Positions 28,546 through 62,698 of a stretch of 64,000 nucleotides of DNA are shown here, in pieces (position 1 is the first letter of the stretch; each line of letters begins with the position of its first letter). The notes beneath the pieces were generated by a model that saw only the letters and a program-made list of their open reading frames with translations, did not search any database and had not been told where the DNA came from. The translations under genes and the position numbers were made by a program. Source of the stretch: an uncultured Victivallis sp. (GTDB taxonomy: Bacteria; Verrucomicrobiota; Lentisphaeria; Victivallales; Victivallaceae); the NCBI GenBank assembly GCA_944389815.1, contig CALXNS010000076.1, positions 1 through 64,000 on the forward strand. The letters are read 5' to 3'.

Positions 28546-30306
28546 ATGACGCGAAACATGCCGAAGATCGGGATTCGTCCAACCATCGACGGACGACGCC
28601 GGGGCGTGCGTGAATCACTGGAAGAACAGACGATGAACATGGCGCGCGCAGCTGCGGAACTGATTTCGAATACGTTGCGCTATCCGAACGGCGAAGCGGT
28701 TCAATGCGTGCTTGCGGATACGACGATCGGTGGAGTGAACGAAGCGGCGCGCTGTGCGGAGAAGTTCTCCCGCGAGGGGGTGACTGCGACGTTGACGGTG
28801 ACGCCCTGCTGGTGTTACGGTTCGGAAACGATGGACATGGATCCGCTGACGCAGAAGGCGGTGTGGGGATTCAACGGCACCGAGCGTCCCGGCGCGGTCT
28901 ATCTGGCTGCGGTGCTGGCGGCGCATGCGCAGAAGGGGCTGCCGGCCTTCGGGATTTACGGGCGGAATGTTCAGGATGCCGATGACACGACCATCCCGGA
29001 AGATGTGGCGGAAAAAATCATCGCCTTTGCGCGTGCGGCGGTGGCGGTCGGCATGATGCGCGGAAAATCCTACCTCTCGATGGGAAACGTGGCGATGGGA
29101 ATCGCCGGTTCGATCGTCAACCCGGCGTTCTTCGAGGAATATTTGAACATGCGGTGCGAGTACGTCGACATGAGCGAATTCATCCGGCGCATGGAGGAGA
29201 AGATTTACGATCCGGCCGAATTCGAACGGGCGATAAAGTGGGTCGAACTCAACTGCCGTGAAGGCGCCGACCGCAATCCGTCGGAAGTGCAGCGTTCGGC
29301 GAAGGAGAAACAGGCCGTCTGGGAGTTCGTCGTCAAAATGGCCATGATCGGACGCGATCTGATGGTCGGCAATCCGCGTCTGGCCGAACTCGGTTTCCGC
29401 GAGGAGGCGGAAGGCCACAATGCGATCGCTGGCGGTTTCCAGGGCCAGCGGCAGTGGACGGACCATTTCCCGAACGGGGACTTCATGGAGTCGATGCTCT
29501 GCAGTTCTTTTGACTGGAACGGCTTGCGTGAGGCGTTCGTCGTCGCGACCGAAAACGATTCGCTCAATGGCGTCGCGATGCTTTTCGGCCATCTGCTCAC
29601 CGGGACCGCGCAGGGCTTCTCCGATGTACGCACCTTCTGGAGCCGGGAGGCGGTCAAACGCGTCACCGGTTACGACCTGGAGGTGCCCGGTTTGATTCAC
29701 CTGATCAATTCCGGAGCGACGACGCTGGACGCGACCGGACGCCAGATCGGACCGGACGGGAAACCGGCGATGAAACCTTTCTGGGAGATCACCGAAGCGG
29801 AGGCGAAATCGTGCCTGGAGGCGACGCAGTGGTGCGCGGCCAGCCACGGATATTTCCGCGGTGGCGGTTTTTCGAGCAAATTCATCAGCCGCGGCGGAAT
29901 GCCGATCACGATGAGCCGCGTCAATCTGGTCAAGGGGCTTGGTCCGGTGCTGCAGATTGCCGAAGGTTACACCTGTGAACTGCCGGAAGAGGTGCATCGG
30001 AAACTCGATGAACGCACCGATCCGACCTGGCCGACGACATGGTTCGTGCCGAATCTGACCGGAGAGGGAGCCTTCCGTGACGTTTACAGTGTGATGGCGA
30101 ACTGGGGCGCGAATCACGGCGCGTTCAGTTACGGTCACATCGGCGCGTCGCTGATTACGCTCGCGTCGATGCTGCGGATTCCGGTGTGTATGCACAACGT
30201 GCCGGAAGAAAAAATCTTCCGCCCGGCGGTGTGGAATGCGTTCGGCATGGACAGGGAAGGCGCCGATTACCGGGCCTGCCAGGCGCTGGGGCCGGTTTAC
30301 CGCTGA
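28546..30306 (+). CDS. fucI: L-fucose isomerase
   Basis: 586 residues, close to E. coli FucI (591), with near-identical blocks: [118 protein letters not shown] and [10 protein letters not shown]. It interconverts L-fucose and L-fuculose, also D-arabinose and D-ribulose, using Mn2+. Metal ligands E336 (ATENDSLNG) and D360 (SDVRTFW) match E337 and D361 of E. coli. GGGAGG is the ribosome-binding site. No fuculokinase or aldolase gene lies in the window. Confidence 0.99.
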
Positions 30307-30320
30307 AATTGCGCTGAGAG

Positions 30321-30385
30321 CCGGGGGAAGAAGAGCGGGGGGCGGAAGGAAACATTGCCGTCGGCCTCTTCTTCCGGATTTTTTC
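30321..30385 (+). terminator. Factor-independent terminator after fucI
   Basis: GGAAGAAGAG (30326-30335) pairs with CTCTTCTTCC (30366-30375), with CCGG flanks, followed by ATTTTTTC. The loop is long (about 30 bases) and can itself fold. It may let only part of the transcripts reach the next gene. Confidence 0.65.
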
Positions 30386-30432
30386 GTTTGATTTGAAGAA
30401 AGAAACACACCACAATCGGGATTGTTGAAGTT

Positions 30433-32454
30433 ATGGGATTGCGTTACAGGCAGATTCATCTTGATTTTCATACATCGCCGGACATTCCGGAAATCGGAGC
30501 GTTGTTTGACCGGAAGGAGTTTCAGGAGGCGCTCAAAACCGCCGAAGTCGATTCGATCACCTGTTTTTCCTGCTGTCATCACGGGTTGAGTTATCATCCG
30601 ACCCGGATCGGAAAAATGCATCCCGGATTGAAGTTCAATCTGCTGCGCGAACAGATCGACGCATGCCATGAGATCGGCGTCAACGTGCCTGTGTACATCA
30701 CCGCCGGCGTGAATTCCGTCGCGGCCGCCGCACATCCGGAATGGCGCGAAATCTCGCGCGACGGTCAGTGGAACGGCTGGCGGCATTCGCCGCTGGAGGC
30801 CGGGTTCGACAAACTCTGCTTCAACACGCCGTATCTGGATTATCTCTGCGCGCTGATCGAGGAGACCGTGACGATGTTTCCCGATTGCGACGGCATTTTT
30901 CTGGACATCATCTCCCAGGGGCAGTGCTGCTGCCGGGAGTGTATGGAAGAGATGGTGCGTGACGGATTGAATCCGGAAGTCGAAGCCGACCGCATCGCCC
31001 ATGCGCGGAAAGTGCTGCTGAAATATTATGAACGTTCCACCGCGGCGGCGCGGGTTCACCGCCCGGATATGCCGGTATTCCACAACTCCGGACATGTGAC
31101 GATGGGCGATACGGAAATTCTGCGTTATTTCAGCCACCTCGAACTCGAATCGCTGCCGACCGGCGGCTGGGGATACGACCATTATCCGATGTCCGCCGCC
31201 TACAGCCGGAATCTCGGGATGGAATTTCTCGGCATGACCGGGAAATTTCAGACCACGTGGGGCGAATTCGGCGGACTCAAGCACCCGAACGCCCTCCGTT
31301 ACGAATGCGCGGCGATGCTTGCCAACGGTTCCCGTTGCAGCATCGGCGATCAATTGCATCCCTCCGGGAAGTTCGACGCCTCCACTGCTGCGGTGATCGG
31401 CGCCGCCTACCGCGAAGTGAAGGAGAAGGAAGCCTACTGTCGGGGGGCGGAGTCGGTTGCTGCCGTCGCGGTGCTCGGCAGGGAGTCGATCACCCGGATT
31501 CACGCCTGGTTTCCCGAGGATTCCGGTGCGGCGCGGGTGCTGTTGGAGGAACACATTCCGTTCGACTTCGTCGACACGCAAATGGACTGGTCGAAATACC
31601 GTTTTCTCCTGCTGCCGGACGAAGTGTGCGTGACGCCGGAGCTGGCCGTGAAACTGGACGCGTTCCGCGCGGACGGCGGGAAATTGATCCTCTCCGGAGA
31701 ATCGGGCATGAATCCGGAAAAGAATTGTTTTGCATTGAAGAATCTGCCGTTCGACTGGGAGGGGCCAAGTTCGTATTCGCCCGACTACGTTCAGGCCGCC
31801 GCCGCCTTCGCGCCGGAATTCGCGACGACGCCGTTTGTGATGTACACCCGTTCGCAGCGGATCCATGCGAAGCCGGGCGCGGTTTCGCTCGGATCGGTTT
31901 ACGATCCGTATTTCAACCGCGACTGGCGGCACTTCTGCAGCCATCAGCACACGCCGTACCGGCCGGAACCTTCCGGATACGATGCGGGCGCGATGGGCGA
32001 CGACGTGCTTTATTTCGCGCATCCGGTGTTCACGCTCTACCGCGGCTGGGGCGCTGTGGCGGTGCGCGAATTCATCGGACGGGCGTTGCGCGCCTTCCTG
32101 GGAGATGCATTGCAGTTGAAAACCGAACTGCCGTCGACCGGACGGGTGACGCTGATGCGACAGAAGGAGGAGTCGCGTTACATTCTGCATCTGCTTTACG
32201 CGAACACCATCATTCGCGGCGGCAGCGTGACGACTCTTTCCGGAGAGACCATCGGCCGCGACGGGTTGGAGGTGATCGAAGAATTGAATCCGCTGCCGGC
32301 GGGCCGCGTGGTGGTGAACGTGCCCGAACCGGTGCGCCGCGTGGTGCTGGTACCGGAGAATCGGGAAATCGAATTCACCCGCACGTCCGGCGGTGAAATC
32401 GAATTTTTCGCGCCGGAATTCCGTTGTCACCGGATGGTGGCGCTGGAATATTAA
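30433..32454 (+). CDS. GH151-like putative alpha-L-fucosidase
   Basis: 673 residues, no signal peptide. The N-terminal barrel (RYRQIHLDFHTSPDIPEIG, SITCFSCCHHGLSYHPT, GVNVPVYITAGVNS, DGIFLDIISQGQCCCREC, ELESLPTGGWGYDHYP, GMTGKFQTTWGEFGG) is the GHL6 type known from GH151; the middle (about 345-560) is a beta-galactosidase trimerisation-like domain (FDFVDTQMDWSKYRFLLLPD, LILSGESGMN) and the C-terminus is beta-rich. GH151 includes alpha-L-fucosidases. Position after fucI supports that activity; family assignment is from memory of motifs. It acts inside the cell, so it would need imported fuco-oligosaccharides. Confidence 0.72.
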   Translation: MGLRYRQIHLDFHTSPDIPEIGALFDRKEFQEALKTAEVDSITCFSCCHHGLSYHPTRIGKMHPGLKFNLLREQIDACHEIGVNVPVYITAGVNSVAAAAHPEWREISRDGQWNGWRHSPLEAGFDKLCFNTPYLDYLCALIEETVTMFPDCDGIFLDIISQGQCCCRECMEEMVRDGLNPEVEADRIAHARKVLLKYYERSTAAARVHRPDMPVFHNSGHVTMGDTEILRYFSHLELESLPTGGWGYDHYPMSAAYSRNLGMEFLGMTGKFQTTWGEFGGLKHPNALRYECAAMLANGSRCSIGDQLHPSGKFDASTAAVIGAAYREVKEKEAYCRGAESVAAVAVLGRESITRIHAWFPEDSGAARVLLEEHIPFDFVDTQMDWSKYRFLLLPDEVCVTPELAVKLDAFRADGGKLILSGESGMNPEKNCFALKNLPFDWEGPSSYSPDYVQAAAAFAPEFATTPFVMYTRSQRIHAKPGAVSLGSVYDPYFNRDWRHFCSHQHTPYRPEPSGYDAGAMGDDVLYFAHPVFTLYRGWGAVAVREFIGRALRAFLGDALQLKTELPSTGRVTLMRQKEESRYILHLLYANTIIRGGSVTTLSGETIGRDGLEVIEELNPLPAGRVVVNVPEPVRRVVLVPENREIEFTRTSGGEIEFFAPEFRCHRMVALEY

Positions 32455-32472
32455 ACCGGAACAGAATGTCTT

Positions 32473-32509
32473 CGGCGGAGGAAGGCAATGTTTTCCTCCG
32501 CCGTTTTTT
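32473..32509 (+). terminator. Strong factor-independent terminator
   Basis: CGGCGGAGGAA (32473-32483) and TTCCTCCGCCG (32493-32503) form a perfect 11-bp stem with a 9-base loop followed by TTTTTT. It closes the fucI-fucosidase unit. Confidence 0.9.
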
Positions 32510-32539
32510 GCTTTGAAATGAAAAATTTTCCCGGATTTC

Positions 32540-32569
32540 TTGAAATGGATCGTAATCGTGCCATACTAT
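32540..32569 (+). promoter_or_regulatory. Promoter candidate for the M14 peptidase gene
   Basis: TTGAAA (32540-32545), 18 bp, TACTAT (32564-32569), placed just after the terminator, so the peptidase gene is probably transcribed separately. Confidence 0.45.
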
Positions 32570-32640
32570 AAAACAGTTCATCAAACCTGATGGAGAAACA
32601 TCGTATCCAACAGTATCCGGTAAGAAAAGGGGGAGACTGT

Positions 32641-33735
32641 ATGATTACAGCAGCGATCCCGGGAGGAAACATTCAACTTTTCGGCATATCCGGGAACCGG
32701 ATCGAGTTGGACGTGGAGTTGCGCGACACGACGACGGATTGGTTCTACTGGAGCTTCAAGGCGGAATTTCCCCGTCCGGGGCGGTATGAATTTTATTTCG
32801 TCAAACCGAATCGGATCGGGCCGCGCGGTCCGGCGTACAGTCTTGACGGAGGGCGTTCGTGGCGCTGGCTCGGAGAGAATACCGACGGGCGCAGTTTCGT
32901 CTTCGATTATGATGGTTCGGCGCCGGAAGTGTTGTTCTGCATGGGGATGGCGTATCTTGAACGGGATTTCGACGCATTCCGGCGCGAATTTTCCGGGAAT
33001 GCGCTGTTGCAGGTCGAAACGCTCTGCCGGAGCCGTCAGGGCCGGGCGGTGGAAATTGCGACGATTCGCGAGGGGGCTCCGGAATTCACGCTGCTGCTGA
33101 CTTCGCGTCACCACGCGGGTGAAATGATGGCGACATATGTTCTGGAGGGAATGCTGCGTTATGCGTTGATACATGAGGAGTTCCGGCGTTCGATCGGCAT
33201 CACGGCTGTGCCGTTCGTCGACAAGGACGGCGTGGAAAACGGCGACCAGGGCAAGAACCGCGCTCCGCACGATCACGCGCGGGATTACGAGGGAGAATCG
33301 ATTTATCCTGAAGTTGCGGCGATCCGGGAACTCTTTCTGCAGCTCCGCCCCGCGGCGGTGATGGATCTGCACTGTCCGTGGCTTCGGGGTGGTTGTAATG
33401 AATGGATCTACGTGGTCGGTTCCGAGAAGCCGGAGCGCGAACTTCAAATGACGCGCTTCGGACGGATTCTGGAGACGGAAACCCCGCCGTGCTGTCCCTA
33501 TCATGAGAGGGACAACGTCCGCTTCGGCACCTTGTGGAATACGGCGGAAAACTATACCGGCGGCTGGACGATCCGCCATTTCGCCGAGAATTATCCCTTT
33601 GTGAAGGGGGCGTTTTCAATGGAAATACCGTTCGCCAACGCCCGCGAGGTGACGCTCGACCGGGCGGCGGCGCTGGAACTCGGCGCGGCGTTCTGCCGGG
33701 CGATGGCGCGTTATCTGAAAGAAGAAGCGAAGTGA
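32641..33735 (+). CDS. M14-family zinc carboxypeptidase-like protein
   Basis: 364 residues from ATG 32641, chosen for GGGGGAGA just upstream; the frame extends 17 codons further. The N-terminal half-domain (about 1-115) is beta-rich (WFYWSFKAEFPRPGRYEFYF). The M14 core follows: SRHHAGEMM gives the zinc ligands His and Glu, NRAPHDHARDY takes the place of the usual N-P-x-D-x-N-R segment, DLHCPW supplies the third ligand, and FSMEIPFAN the catalytic Glu. No signal peptide is visible, so it is likely cytoplasmic. Substrate unknown; some M14 relatives are amidases or deacylases rather than peptidases. A short ACCAGG/CCTGGT hairpin (33779-33800) lies between its end and the convergent gene. Confidence 0.8.
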   Translation: MITAAIPGGNIQLFGISGNRIELDVELRDTTTDWFYWSFKAEFPRPGRYEFYFVKPNRIGPRGPAYSLDGGRSWRWLGENTDGRSFVFDYDGSAPEVLFCMGMAYLERDFDAFRREFSGNALLQVETLCRSRQGRAVEIATIREGAPEFTLLLTSRHHAGEMMATYVLEGMLRYALIHEEFRRSIGITAVPFVDKDGVENGDQGKNRAPHDHARDYEGESIYPEVAAIRELFLQLRPAAVMDLHCPWLRGGCNEWIYVVGSEKPERELQMTRFGRILETETPPCCPYHERDNVRFGTLWNTAENYTGGWTIRHFAENYPFVKGAFSMEIPFANAREVTLDRAAALELGAAFCRAMARYLKEEAK

Positions 33736-33811
33736 AGAATTTTGCTTTGCTTCACTTCGCTTCAAATTCACTGATTTGACCAGGCTTCACGTCACCTGGT
33801 TTCGAGAAGGA

Positions 33812-36391
33812 TCATTTCCCGGTGTAGAGTCCCGGTCCGTCGCCGATGTGGAGGAAGACCGAACGCCAGATGCCGCCGCCGAGGGTGAAGTCGTCGACCC
33901 GGACGACCAGCACGTTTTCTTCGCCCTCCGGTTTGAGTGCGTCAGTCGCGTCGAAGCGGAAGGGTTCCTTCCACCAGGTCGAATCGGTTTCCCCCTCTTT
34001 GGTATGAAGCCCGAGGCGCTGTCCGTTGAGAAAAACTTCCGCTTCGTCGTCGACGGCGCCGAAGAGCAGTTTGACCGCTTTGCCTTTCCAGCCTGCTGGC
34101 GTCGGGAATGTTACAGCGTACCACACCTGACCGTCGTAATCGGCGGTGCCGGGAAGGCCGCTCTGTTCGAAATAGGACGGAACGGAAATCGTCTGCCATT
34201 CGGCGGCGGGAAATTCGCGAAGATTGAAATATTTCGCATCCATTCCCACCCGGTCCGGATCGAGCCGGAATTTCCAGCGTCCGTCCAGCCGTTCGGTCCC
34301 CGGGGGATCGGGTTCGACCTCCGCGCCGTAGAGGGAGATGCCGGAGAGAATCATGTCCGGCCGCTCCACCTTCGACCAATCCCAGCCGCGGCGGAAAAGA
34401 AGACGGACTTTGCTGGTGCGGACATCTTCGAAGTCTGCAAGCATGCGTCCGGCTCCCTTCAGCGGTCCGAGAGTGCGCCAGTTGCCGAAGACGTATGCCT
34501 GCGCTTCGGCGTCGCTCCAGCTGTAACCGCCGTTGCCCGGTGCTTTGACCAGAATCCGGTTGAGGGTGTAGGTGCCGGGAAGTTCGATTTCAACGAAATG
34601 AGGAGCCTCCGAGCGGCCGCTCGACCAGCCGACCTGACCGTCGGAGAGGGCGGCGCGCCGAAGGAGGTTCGCGTCACCGGTATCGGCGGAGAAACGGGCC
34701 TTCTCCAACGGCACGAGCCGGCTGTATTTTTCCAGGGCGGTCGTGACGATTTCGAGATATTTGGTGACGGCGTCGCGTTGAACGTCGATCAGCCACTGTG
34801 CGTAATAATTTGCTTTCGGAGTTTTCTTTTTTGCCGCATCCAGAAGGGTGATGGCTTTCTCGGCGTCGGCTTTGCGGGCGGAAAGAACCCGGGAATTGTC
34901 CTCCGTGACGATGGATTTGTTGTTCAAATTCATCCGGATGACGTCGAGCATCTCCTTCCAGCCGTCCCCGAAAAGCAGAAACGCGGCGCGCGGCGCGACG
35001 TTTTCGACGATCCACTCCTCCTCGGTCGGCAGATCCGGGTTCCAGAAATACTGTGCCGCGATCGCCGCGAGAAGTCCCCATGCCTCGTAATGGTAAGCAT
35101 TGGTTCTGCCGTCGTGTCCCTTTGCCTCGGTGAAGTTGAGATCCCAGGTCGAGCCGGTCCAGGCGGAAGTATAACGGAACTGGCAGACCTTGAGGTTTTC
35201 CATATATTTACGGTAGGCGGCGACATCTTCGGGGGTGCGTTCCTCAAGCATGACGTAGAAGTGATCGCGCATCTCCTGCGGCACAGTGGCGGCGGTGCGC
35301 CGGAGATATTCGCGGAAGTTCTCGACATCTTCAAGATCGTCGTTTCCGGGGGAATCGTAATAGACCGGCACGGTCCAGATTACGGTCACGTCGGGACATT
35401 TTTCCTGAAGAGCGTTGAAAATCTGTCGGAAACGGATTACATCCGGTTCAACCGGGGAGGGATCATCGGGATAATTCTTCCGGTCAAGATCGTCGCGCTT
35501 GTCCCAGAACTGCTTGATGTAGACGTGCCACCAGCCGGCGTCGGTGACGTCGTGCCAGCAATATCCGCCGACACCGGGCGCGCTGGAATATTGAAGCGCC
35601 ATATCGACATATTGCTGATTGAGCGCAGGGTCGGACCAGTTCCACGGATGGAGCGGCGGTTCGCCCTTGGGACGGTTCCAGCCGCCGGAGCAGAGCCGCA
35701 GATAACGATCCAGCGCGTATTGCTGGCATGATGTGTCGCTGGGATAACCGTAGCGGCCGTAATTGTAACGCATGAGCATACTGGAGAGGAGCAGTGCATC
35801 CTTCTGGCGTTCGACCGGAGCGTGACCGCCGCCGACCTGGGCGGCGGTGCCGAGGCGCATTTCGAATCCGGGGAAATCGGTGGCGTCGACGCCGCGGAAA
35901 GTCCAGGAATCGTTTTCCGCCGGGCGGAGGAGCTGGATCAATCCGGCGAGCGCATAGGCCGCGCCCTGGGTGTCGGAGGCGACCACGTAAACGGCGTCGG
36001 GGCGGGAACGGATGATGAAACTTTGTGCATTGCGTTCATCCTGCGGAAGTTTGGCGATTTCCGAGTCGGGAATGAGATTTTTCAGTTCAGCGGAGCGTTC
36101 TTCGGGGGTGAGAATCTTCACCGGCAAGCCGTCGCCGCCGTCGAATCGGATCGGAAACGTCTTTTCCCAGTGGCGCGCCAGATAATCGGAGAGGTCGTCG
36201 GTGACGAGCTTGAGCCGTTCGCGGTCGAATTGATCCGAGAGGTGCAGCGAAAACCCCGTCAACGGTATTTCCGCGTCACTGTAATGCGCCTGCCGGGGGA
36301 TGGGGAACATTTCGCGGAAACGGTCAAATTCCACGGCGCTGAGCCCGACGGCGACGAGACCCAGTAAAAAGATGAAAACGATTTTTTTCAT
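33812..36391 (-). CDS. Secreted multidomain GH84-like enzyme, paralog 1
   Basis: 859 residues with signal peptide (MKKIVFIFLLGLVAVGLSA). Residues about 20-165 are a GH20/GH84 N-terminal-type domain (FPIPRQAHYSD, AQSFIIRSRPDAVYVVASDT, GAAYALAGLIQLL). A barrel at about 170-480 resembles GH84 (PGVGGYCWHDVTDAGWW, VIWTVPVYYD, FYVMLEERTPEDV, CQFRYTSAWTGSTWDLNF), a helical region follows, then an F5/8-C-like domain (about 610-710) and a GH2-type sugar-binding jelly roll (about 725-855). In GH84 the catalytic pair is W-D-D; here it reads W-H-D, so activity may differ. Very similar over its full length to the gene at 36833-39430. Own promoter with LacI-type operators. Confidence 0.75.
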   Translation of the reverse strand: MKKIVFIFLLGLVAVGLSAVEFDRFREMFPIPRQAHYSDAEIPLTGFSLHLSDQFDRERLKLVTDDLSDYLARHWEKTFPIRFDGGDGLPVKILTPEERSAELKNLIPDSEIAKLPQDERNAQSFIIRSRPDAVYVVASDTQGAAYALAGLIQLLRPAENDSWTFRGVDATDFPGFEMRLGTAAQVGGGHAPVERQKDALLLSSMLMRYNYGRYGYPSDTSCQQYALDRYLRLCSGGWNRPKGEPPLHPWNWSDPALNQQYVDMALQYSSAPGVGGYCWHDVTDAGWWHVYIKQFWDKRDDLDRKNYPDDPSPVEPDVIRFRQIFNALQEKCPDVTVIWTVPVYYDSPGNDDLEDVENFREYLRRTAATVPQEMRDHFYVMLEERTPEDVAAYRKYMENLKVCQFRYTSAWTGSTWDLNFTEAKGHDGRTNAYHYEAWGLLAAIAAQYFWNPDLPTEEEWIVENVAPRAAFLLFGDGWKEMLDVIRMNLNNKSIVTEDNSRVLSARKADAEKAITLLDAAKKKTPKANYYAQWLIDVQRDAVTKYLEIVTTALEKYSRLVPLEKARFSADTGDANLLRRAALSDGQVGWSSGRSEAPHFVEIELPGTYTLNRILVKAPGNGGYSWSDAEAQAYVFGNWRTLGPLKGAGRMLADFEDVRTSKVRLLFRRGWDWSKVERPDMILSGISLYGAEVEPDPPGTERLDGRWKFRLDPDRVGMDAKYFNLREFPAAEWQTISVPSYFEQSGLPGTADYDGQVWYAVTFPTPAGWKGKAVKLLFGAVDDEAEVFLNGQRLGLHTKEGETDSTWWKEPFRFDATDALKPEGEENVLVVRVDDFTLGGGIWRSVFLHIGDGPGLYTGK

Positions 36392-36549
36392 GAAAAAACT
36401 CTTCCTTCAGGATTGACCTCAATGGCCGGATTGTAAAATTTCCCCGTTTCCCGCACGCCCGCATTTCTTTTTTCCGGGAGCCGGAACGATTCGATGAATC
36501 TCTTGCTGTCTGCCGCTCTCCGTCCTTTCTGCAACGAACGCGTTTTTTT

Positions 36550-36648
36550 GTTAAAAGGTTTTAACAGTTCAAGTCAAAAAAAACACCTTTCCAACATGTG
36601 AAAGGTTCTAATACAGGTAATTATAGTTGATTTTTCCGATGGTGTCAA
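36550..36648 (-). promoter_or_regulatory. Promoter and two operators of GH84-like paralog 1
   Basis: On the minus strand TTGACA (36643-36648), 17 bp, TATAAT (36620-36625). Operator-like palindromes follow downstream: TGTGAAAGGTTCTAAT (36597-36612) and GTTAAAAGGTTTTAAC (36550-36565, perfect 7-bp arms). The spacing from the -10 box (8 bp and about 55 bp) equals that at the LacI promoter near 41300. The transcript has a leader of about 220 bases; the part 36392-36549 holds nothing else recognisable. Confidence 0.8.
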
Positions 36649-36748
36649 GCGGGGAGGCGATTTTTTTTGCGGAAAAATACGGAAATTCGTGTGACGGGAG
36701 GATCGGCGAGGCGAAACGTTTTCCATTGGACGGTGAAGGTCGTGGAAA

Positions 36749-36786
36749 GCCGCGCTTCCGCCGTTTCGAGCGGGCGGAGGCGCGGC
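36749..36786 (-). terminator. Large hairpin between the two paralogs
   Basis: GCCGCGC (36749-36755) pairs with GCGCGGC (36780-36786), with an inner CCGCC/GGCGG stem. It stands about 50 bp after the stop of paralog 2; only a short T-run follows on the minus strand. Probably ends the upstream transcript, so paralog 1 depends on its own promoter. Confidence 0.5.
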
Positions 36787-36832
36787 GTGAAGGGGAATTT
36801 GCTGTGTTTTCAGCAGGAAAGGCTCTCTCTCC

Positions 36833-39430
36833 TCATTTTCCGGAGTAAAGTCCCGGTCCGTCTCCGATGTGAAGGAAGACCGAACGCCAGATTCCACCCT
36901 CCAGAGTGAAATCATCGACCCGGACGACCAGCACGTTTTCCTCTCCGGCGGGTTTGAGTGCGGCGGTCACGTCGAATCGGAATGGTTCCTCCCACCAGGT
37001 GGAATCATTTTCCCCCTCTTTGGTGTGGAGTCCGAGGCGTTGTCCGTTGAGGAAAACTTCCGCTTCATCATCGACGGCGCCGAAGAGCAGTTTGACCGCT
37101 TTTCCCTCCCAGCCGGCGGGCGTCGGGAACGTCACTGCGTACCACACCTGACCGTCGTAATCGGCGGAGCCGGGAATGCCGCTCTGTTCGAAATGGGAGG
37201 GGACGGTGGTGTCATGCCATTCCGATGCGGGGAATTCGCGAAGTTCGAACCATTTCGCGCCCATTCCGGCTCGATCGGGATCGAGCCGGAATTTCCAGCG
37301 CCCGTCCAGCCGGGCCGTCCCCGGGGGATCCGGTTCTACTTTGTTGCCGTAGAGGGTGATGCCGGAAAGAATCATATCGGGGCGCTCCACCTTCGACCAG
37401 TCCCAGCCGCGCCGGAAGAGGAGACGGATTTTATCGGTGCGGACGTCGTTGAATTCCGCAAGCAACCGCTCCCGGCCGGTGATCGGAGCAAGTTTGCGCC
37501 AGATTCCGAAAAAGTTCGCCTGCACTTCGGCATCGGTCCAGCTGTAACCGCCGTTGCCCGGCGCCTTGATCAGAATCCGGTTGACGTTGTAGACGCCGGG
37601 TAATTCGATTTCCACGAAATGCGGCGCCGCCGACCGGCCGCTCGACCACGAAATTTGTCCGTCGGAAAGCGCCGCGCTCCGGAGGCGGTTCGCATCGCCG
37701 CCGTCGGCGGTGAAACGCGCCGCGTCGAGGGCGATGAGTTGATTGGCCTTCTCCAGCCCGGAATTGACCAGTTCAAGATATTGTGTGAGTTTCGTGCGCC
37801 AGTTGCCGATGAGATAGTGGGCATAGGAGTTGGCTGCGGGGGTTTTCTTTTCCGCCGCGTCGAGAAGCGTCAACGCTTTTTCGGCGTCGCGTTTGCGTGC
37901 GTTCAATGTCTGAGTGTTGTTCTCCTTGACGATGGTTTTGTTGTTCAAGTTCAACCGGAGCACATCGAGCATCTCCTTCCAGCCGTCGCCGAAGATGAGG
38001 AACAACGCCCGCGGCGCGACGTTTTCGACGATCCACGCTTCATCGGTCGGCAGCTGCGGATTCCAGAGATATTGCGCGGCGATTGCCGCAAGTGGATCGG
38101 ACGCTTCGTAGAGATATCCCTCGGTTTTGCCGTCATGTTTTTGCGCATCGGTGAAATTGAGATCCCAGGTGGTGCCCGACCAGACCGAGGTATAACGATA
38201 TTGACACATCTTGAGATTGTCCATGTACTTGCGGTAATCGGCAACGGTTTCCGGAGAACGTTCCTCCAGCATCACGTAGAAACGGTCACGCATCTTCTGC
38301 GGCACGGTCGCGGCGACCAGCCGGAGATATTCACGGAAATTCTTCACATCCTTGAGATCGTCCTTCCCCGGCAGATCGTAATAGACCGGCACGGTCCAGA
38401 TGACGGAAACAGCAGGACATTTTTCCTGAAGCGCATCGAACATCGCCTTGAACCGGATTGCGTCCGGCCGCGCCGGGGAGGGATCATTCGGATAATTTTT
38501 CCGGTCGAGGTCGTCACGCTTGTTCCAGAAGTCATCGATGTAAACATGCCACCAGCCCGCATCGGTGACGTCGTGCCAGAAATATGCACCGACGCCGGGC
38601 GCTCCCGCGTATTGGAGCGCGAGATCGACATATTGCTGATTGACCGCCGGGTCGGACCAGTTCCACGGGCGGAGCGGCGGTTCGCCTTTCGGGCGGTTCC
38701 AGTAACCGGAGCAGAGCCGGAGAAAACAGCGGTCGATCGCGAACTGATGCTGCGAGGTGTCTCCCGGGTATCCGGCTTTGCCGTAATTGTAACGCAGCAA
38801 CATTCCCGCCAGTTGCAGCGCCTGCTGCTGGCGTTGGACGGGAGCGTCTTTGCCGCCGGCTCCAATGGCCGACCCCATGCGCAGTTCGAAGGCCGGGAAA
38901 TCGGTGGCGTCGACGCCGCGGAACGTCCAGGCGTGATTCTCCGCCGGGCGGAGGAGTTGAATGATTCCGGCAAGCGCGTAAGCCGCCCCGCAGGTGTCGT
39001 TGGCAACGATGTAAACCGCGTCGGACGTCGAACGGATGATGAAACTTTGACGACCGCGTTCCCCCTGCGGAAGTCGGGCAAGTTCGGCGGCGGGGATGAG
39101 CGCTTTCAAGGCCGGAGTACGTTCGGCGGGGGTGAGAATGTTTACCGGGAATCCACCGGGAACATTCGTTTTGATTGGGAAGGGTAACCCCCATTGCCGT
39201 TCCAGATAGGCGGCCAGATCGCCTGCAATGAGTTCGAGCCGTTCGCGATCGAATCGATCCGAGATTCGCAGTGAGAATCCCGTCACCGGAATTTCCCGGT
39301 CGCTGTAACGCGCCTGCCGCGGGATGGGGAAGATTTCACGGAAGCGGTCGAATTCCGCCGCGACGGCCCCGGTATTGAAGAGGAACGGCAACGTGAAGCA
39401 GAGAAGAAGGAGATGGAAAAGGTTTTTCAT
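36833..39430 (-). CDS. Secreted multidomain GH84-like enzyme, paralog 2
   Basis: 865 residues with signal peptide (MKNLFHLLLLCFTLPFLFNTGAVA). Domain order is the same as in paralog 1: GH20/GH84-type N-terminal domain, GH84-like barrel (GAYFWHDVTDAGWW, VIWTVPVYYD, FYVMLEERSPETV), helical part, F5/8-C-like domain (SDGQISWSSGRSAAPHFVEI, NGGYSWTDAEVQ), GH2-type sugar-binding domain (WYAVTFPTPAGWEGKAVKLL). The last 250 residues are almost identical between the two. The catalytic position again reads W-H-D. It follows the prepilin-like gene by 24 bp, third gene of the LacI-led operon. Substrate not readable; a hexosaminide is the family expectation. Confidence 0.75.
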   Translation of the reverse strand: MKNLFHLLLLCFTLPFLFNTGAVAAEFDRFREIFPIPRQARYSDREIPVTGFSLRISDRFDRERLELIAGDLAAYLERQWGLPFPIKTNVPGGFPVNILTPAERTPALKALIPAAELARLPQGERGRQSFIIRSTSDAVYIVANDTCGAAYALAGIIQLLRPAENHAWTFRGVDATDFPAFELRMGSAIGAGGKDAPVQRQQQALQLAGMLLRYNYGKAGYPGDTSQHQFAIDRCFLRLCSGYWNRPKGEPPLRPWNWSDPAVNQQYVDLALQYAGAPGVGAYFWHDVTDAGWWHVYIDDFWNKRDDLDRKNYPNDPSPARPDAIRFKAMFDALQEKCPAVSVIWTVPVYYDLPGKDDLKDVKNFREYLRLVAATVPQKMRDRFYVMLEERSPETVADYRKYMDNLKMCQYRYTSVWSGTTWDLNFTDAQKHDGKTEGYLYEASDPLAAIAAQYLWNPQLPTDEAWIVENVAPRALFLIFGDGWKEMLDVLRLNLNNKTIVKENNTQTLNARKRDAEKALTLLDAAEKKTPAANSYAHYLIGNWRTKLTQYLELVNSGLEKANQLIALDAARFTADGGDANRLRSAALSDGQISWSSGRSAAPHFVEIELPGVYNVNRILIKAPGNGGYSWTDAEVQANFFGIWRKLAPITGRERLLAEFNDVRTDKIRLLFRRGWDWSKVERPDMILSGITLYGNKVEPDPPGTARLDGRWKFRLDPDRAGMGAKWFELREFPASEWHDTTVPSHFEQSGIPGSADYDGQVWYAVTFPTPAGWEGKAVKLLFGAVDDEAEVFLNGQRLGLHTKEGENDSTWWEEPFRFDVTAALKPAGEENVLVVRVDDFTLEGGIWRSVFLHIGDGPGLYSGK

Positions 39431-39454: not shown

Positions 39455-40111
39455 TTATTTCCAGAGAACGTCGAAGCTCATTTCGTCATGGCTGCCGTGC
39501 GGATGTTCGCCGATGTGCGTTTTGTCGACGTGCCAGTCCAGATAAAGAATGTTGGTGAAGCCGCCGTGCCGGACGTCGATGCTCTGGACGTTGTTGCGAT
39601 ATTGCCAGTAATACCAGTTGCACCATTGGTTGCCGATGGAGAATTCTCCGCCGTCGAGCATGCCGACTTTGCGTGACGGATAGACCCAGCGGGTGGATTT
39701 TCCGGCTCCGCTTGCATAACGCTCAACGCCGCTTGCATCGTAAAAAGACTGAAACATGAATTTCCCTTCCCGCGGATCGCTGTCATAAAGCAACGTCAGG
39801 GGTTTGCTGCAGCGCAGAACTTCGTTGCTCGGCGCATATTTCAGCGTAACAAGATAGTTATCCCACTGAACGCCGCCCCATAACGCTCCTTCGTAGCTGC
39901 CGTTCATCCAGCCTGTAAGGCTCCATTCGTTGTTGTCGGCGATATACTGGGCGTGAGAAAGTCCGGTCTGGCGCATGTTGTTGATACAGGTGGCGGTCCG
40001 GCCCCGCTCCCGGGCCTGATTCAATGCCGGAAGCAGCATCGAGGCGAGAATGGCGATGATCGCAATCACAACCAATAATTCAATCAGTGTAAAAATGCGG
40101 TGTAATTTCAT
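39455..40111 (-). CDS. Prepilin-like (pseudopilin) protein with H-x9-D motif
   Basis: 218 residues: MKLHRI then [20 protein letters not shown]. Glu+5 is kept; the residue before F is Ile rather than Gly. The C-terminal [14 protein letters not shown] fits H-x9-D with Trp in place of Gly. It starts 52 bp after the LacI gene; a hairpin (ATGAAACCG with CGGACGATTTCAT, 40137-40167) spans the LacI stop. Second gene in the operon, before the GH84-like enzyme. Confidence 0.9.
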
Positions 40112-40163
40112 GATATTCTCCCTGTTGAATGTTGCGATGAAACCGATTGAAAAACGGACGATT

Positions 40164-41168
40164 TCATAATTTCACCTTGATGCTATTTCTGATCTCCAGA
40201 CGCGAAGGAACGCGGATGGTACGGATTTCCGGAATGCCGTTGATTTTCCGTTCCAGTTCGTCGAAGACTTCCCCGATGAAGAGCGCCGGATCGACCCGGA
40301 TGCCGGAGAGCGGCGGATTGTAGAGCGAACTCAGCTGCGAACAGTCGATGACCGCAATCGAAAGATCCTCCGGAATGCGGATGCCCGCCTGGCCGGCGCA
40401 GGAACAGAAATGCATCGCCGTAAGATCGGATGTTGCAAGAACCGCATCCGGCCGGTCGGCGAAAATTCTCTCGGCAGCACGTTTCAACGTCTCCATATCC
40501 CGGAAGGAGAAGTCGACGAGACGCGGTTCCAATCCGAATTCTCCGGCCAGCCGGGAGAAAACCTGCCGTTTGGGCGGGAACTCCGGATCATCGAGCAGCA
40601 CCACAGAACGAATGCCGTTTTGACGGAGATATTCGAAAAGTTCCGCCATGCCCGGTTCATAATCGTACTGAACCGTGCTGATGTCCACGGATTCGGCATT
40701 GATCGTGACCAGCGGCACGACGCCGTGATAGGCCCGTTTGATCCGTTCGGTGCTTTCGGAACAGTTTTCAAACGCCTGCGAACACATGATGACGCCATCC
40801 ACTGCGCGGGTGAGCAGCATCTCCATGGTATCGATCTCCCGCCTGGTATCCCAGACCGTCGGCGTCATCAGCAGTTGACAGCCGCGGCGGTTGGCCTCGT
40901 TCGCAAGTTGTTCAGTCAGCTCCGCGTAATACGGCGTGGCGCTGTCGCCGCAGACAAAGCCGATAATTCCGGTTGACTGGCGCTGCATCGCCAGTGCCAG
41001 GCGATTCGGACGGTAGGAGAGCGACTCGGCCAGTTCCCAGATGCGCTTCCTGGTGTTCTCCGAAACCCGCCGGGCCTGCGGTTTCCGGTTGAGCACGATC
41101 GATACGGTCGTAGTGGAAACTCCCGCCTTTTGTGCCAGCTCGGTGATGGTTACGACTCTTCCTGACAT
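40164..41168 (-). CDS. LacI-family regulator of the GH84-like locus
   Basis: 334 residues from ATG 41168; the frame extends 11 codons upstream, across the nearest operator. The LacI helix-turn-helix is plain ([50 protein letters not shown] is spread over residues 5-54), then a sugar-sensor domain ([78 protein letters not shown]). Three copies of one palindrome precede it and two more lie before paralog 1, so it probably represses both units and itself. No strong ribosome-binding site is seen. Confidence 0.93.
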
Positions 41169-41183
41169 GATTTCAATTTTTCT

Positions 41184-41291
41184 GGTGAAAGGTTTTACCA
41201 ACGCAACTCAAAAAAATCTTCCACCCCGGTGAAAGGTTTTACCATTTCGGCTGTAAAAACCGGACGCATACCGTAGGTGAAAGGTTTTACC
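41184..41291 (-). promoter_or_regulatory. Three LacI-type operators GGTGAAAGGTTTTACC
   Basis: The identical 16-bp sequence occurs at 41184-41199, 41228-41243 and 41276-41291, spaced 44 and 48 bp apart. It is a palindrome of form GGTnAAAnnTTTnACC. The copy at 41276 starts right after the expected transcription start. Roughly four to five helical turns separate the sites, which would allow looping. Confidence 0.85.
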
Positions 41292-42756: not shown

Positions 42757-43659
42757 ATGCAGAACGCAAAGACAAATTCCACAGGCTGGGTTAAATTCAA
42801 GGGGAATCCCGTATTGGGATCGACCGAACTGGGTACCTGCTTTGACGTGCATGTCCACCGGATTGAGACGGGATTCCGTATGTATTTCTCCTGGAGACCG
42901 CAATGCTCTCTGGCTTTTGTGGAGAGTTCCGACGGCATCAACTGGAACGAGCCGCAGATCATTCTCGGACCGAATCCGGAATCGGGCTGGGAAGACAACC
43001 TCAACCGTAACTGTGTTGTCATACGCAACGGGATTCATCATATGTGGTATACCGGACAGGCTCGCGGATTCAGCCGCATTGGTTATGCCGAAAGTTCCGA
43101 CGGCGTGAATTATCGCCGGGTCAGCTGCGAACCGGTGATGATACCGGAATTCCCGTGGGAAAAGGAATCGGTGATGAATCCATTTGTGAAATGGGATGAA
43201 AAACGCGGAATCTATCGCATGTGGTATGCTGCCGGGGAAACCTATGAACCCAATGCACTCGGTTATGCCGAGAGCCGGGACGGCATCCGCTGGCAGAAAT
43301 CCCCGCTGAATCCGATTCTGGTTCACGGTGACGATTTCTGGGATCGAAACCGGGTCGGCGGTTGCGAAGTGGTCGAATGCTGCGACGGCAGCTGGCTGAT
43401 GTTTTACATCGGATATGAGGATATCGATACCGCCCGGATTTGCGCCGCTCGTTCCCCTGACGGTGTCACCCGGTGGCAGCGCCTGAAGACCAATCCGCTG
43501 ATCTCTCCGGATCCGGGATCTTGGGATGCCGCAGCCTGCTACAAACCTTCCCCCTGGTATGATCCCTCCAAAAAACGCTGGATGATCTGGTACAACGGAC
43601 GCAACGGGAACGCTGAATATGTCGGTCTGGCCATCCACGAGGGCTATGAACTGGAGTGA
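42757..43659 (+). CDS. Five-bladed beta-propeller glycosidase (GH43/GH32/GH130-like)
   Basis: 300 residues, no signal peptide, ribosome-binding site GAGGAG 8 bases before ATG. Repeated propeller blades of the form Y-A-E-S-x-D-G-I-x-W are clear (FVESSDGINWNEP, GYAESSDGVNYRRV, GYAESRDGIRWQKS, CAARSPDGVTRWQRL), with MWYTGQ, MWYAAG, MFYIGY and MIWYNGR strand ends. Acidic residues suited to a glycosidase are present (CFDVHV, DRNRVGGCEVVE), but no single family could be fixed. It lies between two ISL3 remnants and is unlinked to a regulator, so it may have been moved there. Likely cytoplasmic. Confidence 0.7.
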   Translation: MQNAKTNSTGWVKFKGNPVLGSTELGTCFDVHVHRIETGFRMYFSWRPQCSLAFVESSDGINWNEPQIILGPNPESGWEDNLNRNCVVIRNGIHHMWYTGQARGFSRIGYAESSDGVNYRRVSCEPVMIPEFPWEKESVMNPFVKWDEKRGIYRMWYAAGETYEPNALGYAESRDGIRWQKSPLNPILVHGDDFWDRNRVGGCEVVECCDGSWLMFYIGYEDIDTARICAARSPDGVTRWQRLKTNPLISPDPGSWDAAACYKPSPWYDPSKKRWMIWYNGRNGNAEYVGLAIHEGYELE

Positions 43660-43740
43660 GCCCGACCGGACGGAAATGCTGGAATGCATCCGTCAGAGGA
43701 GTTGCTTTTGAATTGAGAAAGATCCAGTCAATCGCCGGAG

Positions 43741-44068
43741 AATGAGGCGGGGGAAAGATATTCGCGGCAGGATTGGATATCACGAATGCAAATAATACAT
43801 TCCGGTCGTACTTTCAACGAACCGCAGCGGGGGGAGGTGAAACTCCCCGCGTTGATGACCCAAATCAATTTTTCTTTGCAATATTCAAATTTTTGGTGTT
43901 GAAATCCGCGGCTTCTCTGTGTATTTTGAGGCAATGTGGTCGACATTTTGCCTCCTTGGTTTTCGTTTGGCGAGACAAAACTATAAGGCAAGTATCGACC
44001 TTTATCCAGTCGTTATGATTTTCTCTGCCCCCCGTTGTGAGGTTATTCATGGCTCAAGCCGGAGAAGA
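43741..44068 (-). mobile_element. Second ISL3 remnant (transposase N-terminal end only)
   Basis: Bases 43775-44068 match 42429-42713 of the other element closely, including the stretch AAATCAATTTTTCTTTGCAA and the terminal repeat (44045-44068). Only the 5' part of the transposase and one inverted repeat remain; the other end is missing. Same orientation as the first copy. Bases 43660-43740, between the glycosidase gene and the remnant, hold nothing recognisable. Confidence 0.75.
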
Positions 44069-44303
44069 ACCGAAAAAACAGAAATTGTAACGCGAATGAA
44101 ATCATTTCCGAACCGGACGGGCTTCTGTCAAAACGGGAGCCGCCGCCGGGGAACGTTCATCCTGCCGGGCGGCGCCGGGAACCGGTCGGAGAGTGGAGAA
44201 CGCTTCAAAAAAATATCCTCCGCGGAAACCGGGAGGAAACGCAAGCCGCATGGCCGCAGAGGGCGGAGGAAACGCCCGTTTCGGACGCTCCTTCGCATTT
44301 TTT
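44069..44303. other. Intergenic stretch downstream of GH42 gene
   Basis: No convincing gene, RNA or clean terminator was seen here. Open frames are short and resemble neither neighbour. GC-rich small inverted repeats occur but none is followed by a T-run on the minus strand. Confidence 0.5.
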
Positions 44304-46418
44304 TCATATCCGGACGAACAGCTCCGCACTCTCCCGGGGCAGCCGGAATTCGTCCGCGCCATGGAATACGCCGCGCCATTTGCCCGGCAATCCCGGATCG
44401 AAGACGGCCTCCTTGTCATGCGAATTGACCGCGACGATGAAACATGGTTCGCCGTCCTCGGTTAAAATATCCACGTGAATGCCGGGGGCGACCGCCTCCG
44501 GTTGAATGCCCGCCGCCGCCGCCGCCTTAAACAGCCAGCTCGCCAGGAGGGAACGTTCGAGTCGGAAACCGCGCCCGAGCAACGTCCCGGCGTGGAACCA
44601 GCGTCCATTGCCGACCGTTTTGGAGATCATGCACACTTTGTCCCGGAACCGTCCCTCGATGACGCAGTCTTCGCCGGCAAGTTCGGCAAATTGCAGCGAA
44701 CCGAACCCTGCGGTGCCGTCCGGCGCGGAAATCGGGAAATATTCTCCGCCGGAAACGCCGTCCGTCTTCATCGCTTTGGCGACGTCCCCGGAAACCTCCG
44801 CCGCCAGCCCGCCGTATTCTCCGGTGCGCGGCAGATGGTAGGAGGAGGTGCTCTCCACTTCCCGTGCGCCCCATCTTTCCGCGAGTCCGCAGCCGGGCAG
44901 AATTTCACTGTGACGCCCGGTGGTGGCGTTGTAACCGGCCAGATGCCCCTCGGTGACCAGAATGCCGCCGGAACGGAGAAACGCGTCGAGACGGTCGGCT
45001 TCCTCTTCGGCAAGGAAGTAGGGCGACGGCATCACGATCATTGCGATTTCTTCCGGGAAATCGCGCTTCGAATCGATGATGCGAAACGGCAGATTTTCCT
45101 CGTAAAGACAATCGGCATACGCGGAAACGCTTTCCCGGAAGCGTTTCAAATTGCCGTCCATGCAGAAATGGAACACTTCGTTTGCATTGCTTCTCCAGAT
45201 GCCGATTTGCGGCGTGCGCCTGCGTGCGCGCATCAGCCCCGGCAGATGCGGCCGCAGCTTTTCGATGAACTCCGCCGCGTGGAGCGTCACCGGCCGGGAG
45301 GAACCGTCCGGATGAATCAACCCCCACGCCGGCGATTCGATGCCGAGCGTTTCCGGGCGGAACTGCCAGAAGAGAAAGCCGCGCACCCCCCAGCCGAGCT
45401 GAGGAATTCCTTCGCGCAGGAAGGTATCGCGGTCGATGATTCTCTGGTGCATTGCCGTCGAACCGTAATTGATGTGCCATTCGGCGTTGTAGAAGACGCG
45501 GTTTCCGGCGGCGCTGACCGCCTGCGCGGCCAGCAACGTGTCGGATGTGATGGTCGACGCGAAAACGTCACACAAGTCCGCGAGGGCGAAGTCGTCCACA
45601 CAGCTGACCGCGTTGAAGCAGTCGATCGAATTGGCCACGACATGCAGATAACAGACGTGCGCGGGGTCGAGTTTCCGGATTATTTCCGTCCGCCATCGAC
45701 CATCCGCGGTCAATTTTTCCAGATGGAACATCCGCCAGTCGATGAAGTCGCTGACGGTCGTCGGGTCGCGGGGCAGTTCCACTTCGTCGAAGGAAGCGTA
45801 ACAGCGTCCCCATACCGTATTGAGCCGTTCGATGGAACGGTTGTATTTATTCTGGAGGAATTTCTGAAATCCGCGGTGGCATTCCGGACAGTAGCAGAGC
45901 AGTTTTTCCATATCTGGACTGCGTCGCATCAGGTTGTTTTCTGGTTCATTCCAGACATCCCACATTGCCAGCGCCGGATGATTGCGGAAATGTTCTGCGG
46001 CGGCTTCTGTGAAGCGTTTGCGCGCCTCCAGCGCCCCGGGATGTGAATGGCACGGACCGGGATAACCGCCGAGCTGGCGACAGATGTTTGCGACCGGTTC
46101 GAGGGTATGGCCGGAAGCGTCGACCATGCGGCAGTCGGGATATTTTTCAAAAATCCATCCGGGCGCGACGTCGAGGATCAAGTTGAGTGTGACCGCAAGA
46201 TTGTTGCCGGCGGCGAGATCCATCAATTGGTCGAGATCGTCCCAGAAGTATTGTCCTTCGCGCCGTTCGCTCCATCGCCACTGAACCCAGAATTTCACCG
46301 AATCGAATCCGAGTTCGCGCATTTTCTTCAGGTCGTCGGCCCAGTGTTTCGGGTCGGGGGAGGGCGCGCGATAATATTGCGCCCCGTAAATAAAGGGAAA
46401 AGTTTGATCTTGTCTCAT
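44304..46418 (-). CDS. GH42 beta-galactosidase
   Basis: 704 residues, usual GH42 length, without signal peptide. N-terminal barrel: GAQYYRAPSPDPKHWADDL, KFWVQWRWSERREGQYFWDD, PAWIFEKYPDCRMVDASG-like segment, acid/base candidate in WDVWNEPENN, nucleophile candidate in VFYNAEWHINYG. A Cys-containing loop LCYCPECHRGF suggests the structural zinc site of GH42. The trimerisation domain (about 400-620: FRIIDSKRDFPEEIAMIVMPSPYFL, GGILVTEGHLAGYNATTGRH) and a C-terminal beta domain follow. It hydrolyses terminal beta-galactosides, or arabinosides in some members. It starts 8 bp after the GH39-like gene, so they are co-transcribed. Confidence 0.93.
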   Translation of the reverse strand: MRQDQTFPFIYGAQYYRAPSPDPKHWADDLKKMRELGFDSVKFWVQWRWSERREGQYFWDDLDQLMDLAAGNNLAVTLNLILDVAPGWIFEKYPDCRMVDASGHTLEPVANICRQLGGYPGPCHSHPGALEARKRFTEAAAEHFRNHPALAMWDVWNEPENNLMRRSPDMEKLLCYCPECHRGFQKFLQNKYNRSIERLNTVWGRCYASFDEVELPRDPTTVSDFIDWRMFHLEKLTADGRWRTEIIRKLDPAHVCYLHVVANSIDCFNAVSCVDDFALADLCDVFASTITSDTLLAAQAVSAAGNRVFYNAEWHINYGSTAMHQRIIDRDTFLREGIPQLGWGVRGFLFWQFRPETLGIESPAWGLIHPDGSSRPVTLHAAEFIEKLRPHLPGLMRARRRTPQIGIWRSNANEVFHFCMDGNLKRFRESVSAYADCLYEENLPFRIIDSKRDFPEEIAMIVMPSPYFLAEEEADRLDAFLRSGGILVTEGHLAGYNATTGRHSEILPGCGLAERWGAREVESTSSYHLPRTGEYGGLAAEVSGDVAKAMKTDGVSGGEYFPISAPDGTAGFGSLQFAELAGEDCVIEGRFRDKVCMISKTVGNGRWFHAGTLLGRGFRLERSLLASWLFKAAAAAGIQPEAVAPGIHVDILTEDGEPCFIVAVNSHDKEAVFDPGLPGKWRGVFHGADEFRLPRESAELFVRI

Positions 46419-46426
46419 TTCTTATT

Positions 46427-49087: not shown

Positions 49088-49122
49088 AGTTGTTGCATCA
49101 CTGTCCAGCTCTCGCCGGTTTC

Positions 49123-49827
49123 TCACCATTCGCCGTAAGCGAAAAAAGAATACTCGCTCGTCGATATGCCGTAATAGACGTTTGGCACATTGCGATATGC
49201 CACATGACCGTCGGCAAACATCAGATTATTAAATTCTCCGCGGGAGGCATGCCAGGAATATTTTCCAACACCACACGGCCATCCATAGCCCGCCATGTTG
49301 GAACTCCACATGGTCGTCTCTCCCATGAGGACGATCCGGGAGGGCATTTTAATCTGAGTAAACTTCCCGATCACTCGCCATCCTCCGTTCGGCAGTGAGG
49401 TCAACATGGTGTTGAATGAATAGCTCGTCGCTGAAGTCGGATCCAGATAAGTTGATTCATAACCGCTGGGAATACAATTCCGGAAATTGTCCGAAGGGCA
49501 TTTATACAGGCCGTCGGCGGAAATATACGGGGAAAGATAACGATCCGGCTGATCGATTCCGCCCCAGGCAAACCAGTTACTCGCCTCCGGTGATGTATTG
49601 AAATTATCCCCGTTGTCGTCGAAATACAGACGCCAGACGATCGCCAATTGCTTCAGATTGCTGGCGCACTGGGAGATGCGCGCCCGCTCGCGAGCCTGAC
49701 CCAATGCCGGAAGCAACATACTTGCAAGGATGGCGATGATCGCAATTACAACTAAAAGTTCTATCAGTGTGAAATTGCTTTGGTTCCGCTTCGCCCGGCC
49801 TTCTCTCCTCTGGTCGACCAATCTCAT
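49123..49827 (-). CDS. Prepilin-like (pseudopilin) protein with H-x-DGHV motif
   Basis: 234 residues from ATG 49827, fixed by AAAGGAGAA 7 bases upstream; the open frame continues 27 codons further without a site. An unusually long basic leader ([18 protein letters not shown]) precedes [20 protein letters not shown]; the residue before F is Asn, not Gly. C-terminal [21 protein letters not shown] holds the DGHV motif. First gene of the operon with the GH39-like and GH42 genes, divergent from a LacI gene. Confidence 0.9.
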
Positions 49828-49850
49828 AAAACTTCTCCTTTCTGGATAAT

Positions 49851-49878
49851 GATAATCGTTTTTTCTTTTTCGATTATC
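49851..49878 (-). promoter_or_regulatory. Leader hairpin just upstream of the pseudopilin ribosome-binding site
   Basis: GATAATCG (49851-49858) and CGATTATC (49871-49878) are perfect inverted repeats with a 12-base loop of T on this strand (A-rich in the RNA). It ends about 8 bases before the ribosome-binding site, so it might affect translation or mRNA stability. Confidence 0.45.
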
Positions 49879-49942
49879 TTTTGCCGGTTGCCTCATCATC
49901 AACGCCATACAGGAATATGACCCGGGTGTTTGAGAAACATTA

Positions 49943-56907: not shown

Positions 56908-57765
56908 ATGGATGACCGGATCATTCTGTGGGAAGCGCATCGTGGTGGCGGCGGTTTTGAGTTGCCGGAGAGTACTCCGATGGGGTTCGAATACGCGTGG
57001 ATGCTTGGCGGCACGCCGGAGGCGGATGTGAATGCGACTGCGGACGGAATATTGCTCAGCTTGCATGATGGAAAACTCGAACGGACCGGGCGGAACGTGC
57101 CGCCGGAGATCGGCCGCACGCCGATTGCCGCATTGAGCAGCGAGACGGTGCGGCGTTACGATATCGGGAGCGACGCGTATCCGGATCAGGTCGTTCCGGC
57201 GATCGGGGAGCTGCTGGAGAAACTGCGCGCCGATTCGCGCAAGGAGATCATCATCGATTACAAGAGTGCGCCGCTGGACAAGCTCGCATGTGAGATTTCC
57301 CGACGCGGCGTCGGACGCCAGGTGACGCTGGCGACGACCGACGAGGAGGTCGCGGCCGAATTCAAACGTCTGGCGCCGGAGGTGAGGATCAAGATCTGGC
57401 TGGGCGGTTCGCCGGAAGAGATCATGCGGCGGTTCGATGCGCTGGCGGCGCGGAACTTCGGCGGGTTTGAGCAGTTGCAGCTGCATTTGAATGAGGATGG
57501 CGCGCGGCGCTGTAACTGGCGCTATCAATTGCCTCCGGCGGAGGTGAAGCGCGCGTTGGAAACGACCCGCGCAGCGGGGGTGCTGCTTCAGGTGCTGCCG
57601 TGGCAGTTCGAGCGCGCGGATCTCTTCGCGATCCTGGATTTGGGGGTGCGTTCGTTCGCGGTGGATTATCCGAATAAATTCTGTCTGCTTACGGCGGAAT
57701 ATTTTGCCGTGCGCACCTGGGCGAAACCCGGCGAAAAAATTCAAACGCAGAGCGACCCGGCGTAA
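56908..57765 (+). CDS. Glycerophosphodiester phosphodiesterase-family protein
   Basis: 285 residues of the GDPD barrel: AHRGGGGFELPESTPMGFEYAWMLG gives the first catalytic His and the E-N-T-like element, EADVNATADGILLSLHD gives the second (usually E-x-D...HD), then LLEKLRADSRKEIIIDYKS and LDLGVRSFAVDYPNKF. It may hydrolyse glycerophosphodiesters to glycerol 3-phosphate and an alcohol. The first motif has P-E-S-T where P-E-N-T is typical. No signal peptide, so cytoplasmic. Its 3' end overlaps the convergent murC by 25 bp. Confidence 0.88.
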   Translation: MDDRIILWEAHRGGGGFELPESTPMGFEYAWMLGGTPEADVNATADGILLSLHDGKLERTGRNVPPEIGRTPIAALSSETVRRYDIGSDAYPDQVVPAIGELLEKLRADSRKEIIIDYKSAPLDKLACEISRRGVGRQVTLATTDEEVAAEFKRLAPEVRIKIWLGGSPEEIMRRFDALAARNFGGFEQLQLHLNEDGARRCNWRYQLPPAEVKRALETTRAAGVLLQVLPWQFERADLFAILDLGVRSFAVDYPNKFCLLTAEYFAVRTWAKPGEKIQTQSDPA

Positions 57766-59270: not shown

Positions 59271-59387
59271 AGTTCACCTCTCCCGGGAAAATGGGAATGC
59301 GCCGCGCGGCCGGAAATGAAACCGCTTCGGGGCGGAATCGAATTTTCCCATCAGAAATTCATAAATCAATATTTCCTTGCACTCGAG

Positions 59388-61217: not shown

Positions 61218-61259
61218 CGGTGCCGCATTTCCTTTATCGGGTTCAGAGAAAACGCCCCG

Positions 61260-61721: not shown

Positions 61722-61739
61722 TTTACCCAGGTATTCCAG

Positions 61740-62681: not shown

Positions 62682-62698
62682 ACCTGATTGCCCTCCGA

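Follow-up and report, generated by a model that had tools for sequence, protein, structure and literature searches.

We found that enzymes A and B, two large proteins encoded in tandem in the window (the whole stretch of 64,000 nucleotides analysed here), may represent a glycosidase-type family, apparently without a name, that is kin to both GH84 and GH163, with a candidate acid/base pair and a substrate class that are proposed below. We give this reading as a whole a probability of about 0.5.

Twin genes and their domains

The two genes, their parts and the associated genes are located as follows, with domain limits and residue numbers for enzyme A.

33812..36391, minus strand: enzyme A, open reading frame of 859 residues
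Residues 28-172: GH20b-like domain (Pfam, above cut-off)
Residues ~173-480: GH84-related barrel (inferred from models and alignment)
Residues ~481-575: helical region (inferred from models and alignment)
Residues ~579-673: F5/8-C-like domain (Pfam, sub-threshold)
Residues 700-832: C-terminal GH2-type jelly roll (Pfam, above cut-off)
35540..35554, minus strand: motif H280-D281-V282-T283-D284, after β4 (from the reading-frame numbering)
35240..35242, minus strand: codon of the conserved E384 at the end of β6, candidate second catalytic group
36833..39430, minus strand: enzyme B, open reading frame of 865 residues, tandem paralog with the architecture of enzyme A
N-terminus of enzymes A and B: apparent signal peptide, judged by eye
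39455..40111, minus strand: gene next upstream of enzyme B, for a prepilin-like protein whose N-terminal methylation motif scored slightly under the Pfam cut-off
40164..41201, minus strand: LacI-family regulator, first gene of a putative operon
49123-49908: second prepilin-like gene

Both open reading frames were confirmed, and the two proteins are 74% identical over their full length, in agreement with the earlier note, which had described two similar enzymes of these sizes. Its count of five domains was fair: the GH20b domain and the jelly roll lie above the Pfam cut-offs, the F5/8-C-like match is sub-threshold, and the barrel and helical regions are inferred. The GH20b match is barely over its cut-off in both proteins (E ~1e-5), no Pfam or NCBIfam model matched the barrel of either protein above cut-off, and the jelly roll was the sole match of the window protein in a phmmer search of the PDB. 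Comparison of the two genes by the NG86 method gave a dN of 0.17 and a dS of 0.83 (dN/dS ~0.2); both genes are real and under purifying selection. Very long antisense open reading frames, of up to 1271 residues, lie opposite real genes at 28615-32430 (minus strand), 33776-35731 (plus strand) and 37619-39187 (plus strand). All three are probably a by-product of high GC3 and not genes, and those over the enzyme genes were judged to be spurious.

A sister species carries one ortholog of enzymes A and B, which is 67-72% identical to them in the barrel and 40-42% identical in the GH20b domain. Since this species has a single copy and enzymes A and B group with each other in the tree, the pair arose by tandem duplication within the source lineage. 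The ortholog reads HDVTDAG, as do both window proteins. The earlier note had argued that a change common to both copies is not random; the change is indeed found in both, but it was simply inherited, as the duplication and the sister species indicate.

The H-x-x-D family and its relation to GH84 and GH163

Single-sequence searches with the window proteins recovered almost no relatives, and a single-protein scan of the genome-contig collection and two viral-contig scans recovered zero. The weak single-sequence matches were built into a family profile (A3), and an HMM search of 388 genomes of the phylum with this profile revealed about 30 full-length homologs. A further profile scan of the genome-contig collection revealed 14 loci with several phylum labels, namely Lentisphaerae, Planctomycetota, WS1, Armatimonadota/Zipacnadia and Gammaproteobacteria (labels as given by the MAGs). 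The family is widespread and apparently unnamed; its members, mainly from Lentisphaeria, are secreted and combine a GH20b domain with a barrel. Pfam and NCBIfam recognised only the N-terminal GH20b part and accessory C-terminal domains of its members. The NCBIfam names 'GlcNAcase' and 'alpha-d-galacturonidase' were rejected as functional clues, as these matches covered essentially the N-terminal domain only and were far below cut-off.

In a barrel-only hhalign comparison, the window clade matched the remaining family with a probability of 98.6% (E 1.3e-15), against 3.3% for the reversed-profile control; by this profile match, the window barrel belongs to the unnamed H-x-x-D family. In the tree, the window trio formed a clade with full support, and its stem was very long, at 3.47 changes per column. 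L116, which comes from another genome of the same genus, yielded no H-x-x-D motif.

The earlier note had aligned the barrel by eye with GH84. The barrel-only profile of the family matched GH84 with a probability of 97.1% (E 7e-11) and DUF4838/GH163 with 94.2%, while the reversed-profile controls for these known-family comparisons gave 0.1-0.4% (0.4% for GH84). Kinship with GH67 was rejected at an hhalign probability of below 1% (0.5%). With the window clade left out, the family still gave a probability of 90.3% for strict GH84 and 89.5% for DUF4838. As the family matches both, and DUF4838 matched strict GH84 at only 1%, we place the family between the two. The structural models pointed in the same direction: the model of the family member L064 (pLDDT 84, pTM 0.86) had GH84 structures as its top Foldseek matches in the PDB (E 2.9e-17, TM ~0.5). 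The structure prediction that the earlier note had called for thus gave GH84 as the best match, and Foldseek with the window protein agreed, but that model is weak, with a pLDDT of 65 that falls below 50 directly after the motif. Searched against the PDB, the family profile matched the GH20b domain, and it reached barrel stretches of NagJ and CpGH84B at non-significant scores only. The GH84 model PF07555 matched neither enzymes A and B nor 25 family members nor any protein of the window's own genome. The GH84 likeness of the earlier note therefore holds as a remote kinship, judged from profiles and models, and not as GH84 membership.

The same barrel lies close to DUF4838, which is annotated as GH163 (PMC9870897), and enzymes A and B could be GH163 members instead of a separate family. 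The barrels are homologous at profile level (94%), DUF4838 has a lone Asp at the β4 site as the family does, and its C-x-C-P-x-C stretch is reminiscent of the C-x-x-C that follows W-x-x-R in some family members. However, DUF4838 reads S-Q-N-D where the family reads H-x-x-D with an invariant His, and the C-terminal domains differ. Moreover, PF16126 (DUF4838/GH163) had no match in the window proteins or their genome and touched only one of the 25 family members (E 0.06), and without the window clade the two known families matched about equally well. We regard GH163 membership as highly improbable. Some relatives (G094, G099 and G102) show a huge expansion of DUF4838 (GH163-type) genes, with at least 30 matches per genome, and the window genome has zero.

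Other glycosidases were similar in part. The GH20 hexosaminidases have the GH20b domain and a D-x-P-x-x-x-x-R junction into the barrel, as in the family, but their catalytic D-E pair was not seen in it, and PF00728 (GH20 catalytic domain) matched neither enzymes A and B nor the 25 family members. The uronidases of GH67, GH115 and GH138 appeared further down the Foldseek list for the window model and have a comparable large domain layout. The likeness to GH115 and GH138 is one of Foldseek match and layout; the GH67 barrel is without profile similarity, and PF07488 (GH67) had no match in the window's own genome.

The active-site motif

In GH84, an adjacent Asp pair acts with participation of the N-acetyl group (PMC4263850), and in the Clostridium perfringens enzyme NagJ the role of catalytic acid falls to the second one, Asp298 (PMC3476531, PMC2828546). 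The strings CWHDVTD and FWHDVTD, which the earlier note had read as this pair with His in place of the first Asp, are present in the two window proteins, but it was not confirmed that their His-Asp stands at the sites of the GH84 pair. Among the family members outside the window trio, the His and an Asp at exactly H+3 were found in 39 of 39, whereas Asp was found at H+2, the position of the GH84 first Asp, in 0 of 39. In the profile alignment, GH84 F-F-D-D-I pairs with family H-x-x-D-x, with the window clade in or out, so that the catalytic acid Asp of GH84 aligns with the Asp after β4 in the family, whereas at the site of the first Asp the family residue varies. The His comes two residues ahead of that site. 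By these alignments, the His is a hallmark of the family and not a substitute for an Asp; replacement of the GH84 Asp by His was rejected on the family-wide conservation of the His. The W-H-D of the window proteins is only a local resemblance to the W-D-D in the NagJ motif IYWDDIQD.

The window trio alone reads H-D-V-T-D-A-G, i.e., H-x-x-x-D, and thus departs from the exact family spacing. In the ungapped hhalign alignment, T283 falls in the column that holds Asp in all 39 members, and the alignment score cannot decide between T283 and a gap that places D284 there. D284 is favoured because D-x-G follows, as in most family members. Most likely, the window clade carries a one-residue insertion and the acid position is D284, not D281 as the earlier note had supposed; D281 has no conserved equivalent in the family.

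If T283 does stand in place of the family Asp, the window clade would have lost ordinary catalysis at this site, and enzymes A and B would be binding proteins or would use relocated acids. The ungapped alignment, the very long stem of the clade and a change after β6 agree with such a loss: where GH84 has its WTG stretch, the family reads R-E and the window clade E-E. In contrast, an Asp follows one residue later in a family-like D-x-G context, W296, R299, Y344, E384, W450 and N451 are kept, and the barrel shows strong conservation from one sister species to the other. The His and G475 are likewise conserved in the window clade along with the family. We consider this loss decidedly unlikely and retain D284 as the putative acid. 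Given its very long stem and its E-E, the window clade may nevertheless differ from the family in its chemistry.

Active-site placement was judged from the strand ends of the models. In the L064 model, H302 is the last residue of β4, D305 follows in the loop, and E413 stands directly after β6. Outside the window trio, W296 and R299 were conserved in 39 of 39 members and E384 in 35 of 39, and this β6 Glu (E384) is the best candidate for the second catalytic group.

Proposed catalysis, substrate and gene neighbourhood

The first Asp of GH84 orients the acetamido group of the substrate. With an Asp after β4, a Glu after β6 and no equivalent of that first Asp, the family enzymes would hydrolyse glycosides without help from a 2-acetamido group; D284 (or, if there is no indel, a neighbouring acid in HDVTD) would serve as general acid and E384 as base or nucleophile. 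It is plausible from the alignments that classical N-acetyl-assisted catalysis was lost in the whole family and not in the window pair alone. The earlier note had linked the loss of the first Asp to a different sugar or mechanism; the absence of an equivalent residue makes this plausible, but the His is not its replacement. On the same grounds, the family probably acts on another sugar and by another mechanism. The invariant R299 and H280, together with frequent Arg elsewhere, point weakly to an anionic substrate, such as a uronic acid or a sulfated sugar.

Alternatively, the proteins could still be GH84-type hexosaminidases, in which H280 or another polar residue (E384 or D281) orients the N-acetyl group and substrate-assisted catalysis stays. 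GH84 is the best fold match and the best profile match, the GH20b-plus-barrel layout is common to the family and the GH84 O-GlcNAcases (NagJ, BtGH84; PF07555), and W-H-D is locally like W-D-D. However, PF07555 found no match, the first-Asp position held no Asp in any of the 39 members, and the GH84 WTG after β6 aligns with R-E. We consider this rather unlikely and return to hydrolysis without acetamido help. In its most specific form, which we hold as a tentative view at less than even odds, an unclassified family would link GH84 and GH163, a single β4 Asp and a β6 Glu would have replaced N-acetyl-assisted catalysis, the substrates would be acidic or non-acetamido sugars, and the window clade would have shifted the Asp by one residue.

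The order of LacI regulator, prepilin-like gene and enzyme is also kept in the sister species. This putative operon is consistent with sugar-induced expression and supports it. A recurrent set of a LacI/GntR-type (or AraC) regulator, a prepilin-like gene and a large enzyme was observed in the window (39455-41201) and at L016:7863-9572, L064:2916-4779, L067:3037-4802, L071:1260-4591 and L075:2058-4911. At L064 and L067, a GntR-type regulator and a prepilin-like gene precede the enzyme; at L071 and L075, the prepilin-like gene is directly upstream of the enzyme and the regulator lies further off on the other strand. Genes for an L-fucose isomerase, a GHL6/GH42M protein, and GH130/GH32-like, GH42 and GH39-like enzymes occupy 28546-33735 and 42757-49908, and these neighbours suggest that the region around enzymes A and B is glycan-degrading. 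A cell-wall/division cluster with MraW, a penicillin-binding transpeptidase and a Mur ligase lies at 57741-62909 (minus strand).

If the proposed reading is true, a barrel whose known enzymes rely on substrate-assisted catalysis also has a widespread branch that lacks the enabling residue. Such a branch would be a natural experiment on the change of mechanism and substrate in these enzymes, and it would provide a ready set of uncharacterised, candidate polysaccharide-degrading enzymes in Lentisphaeria and their relatives.
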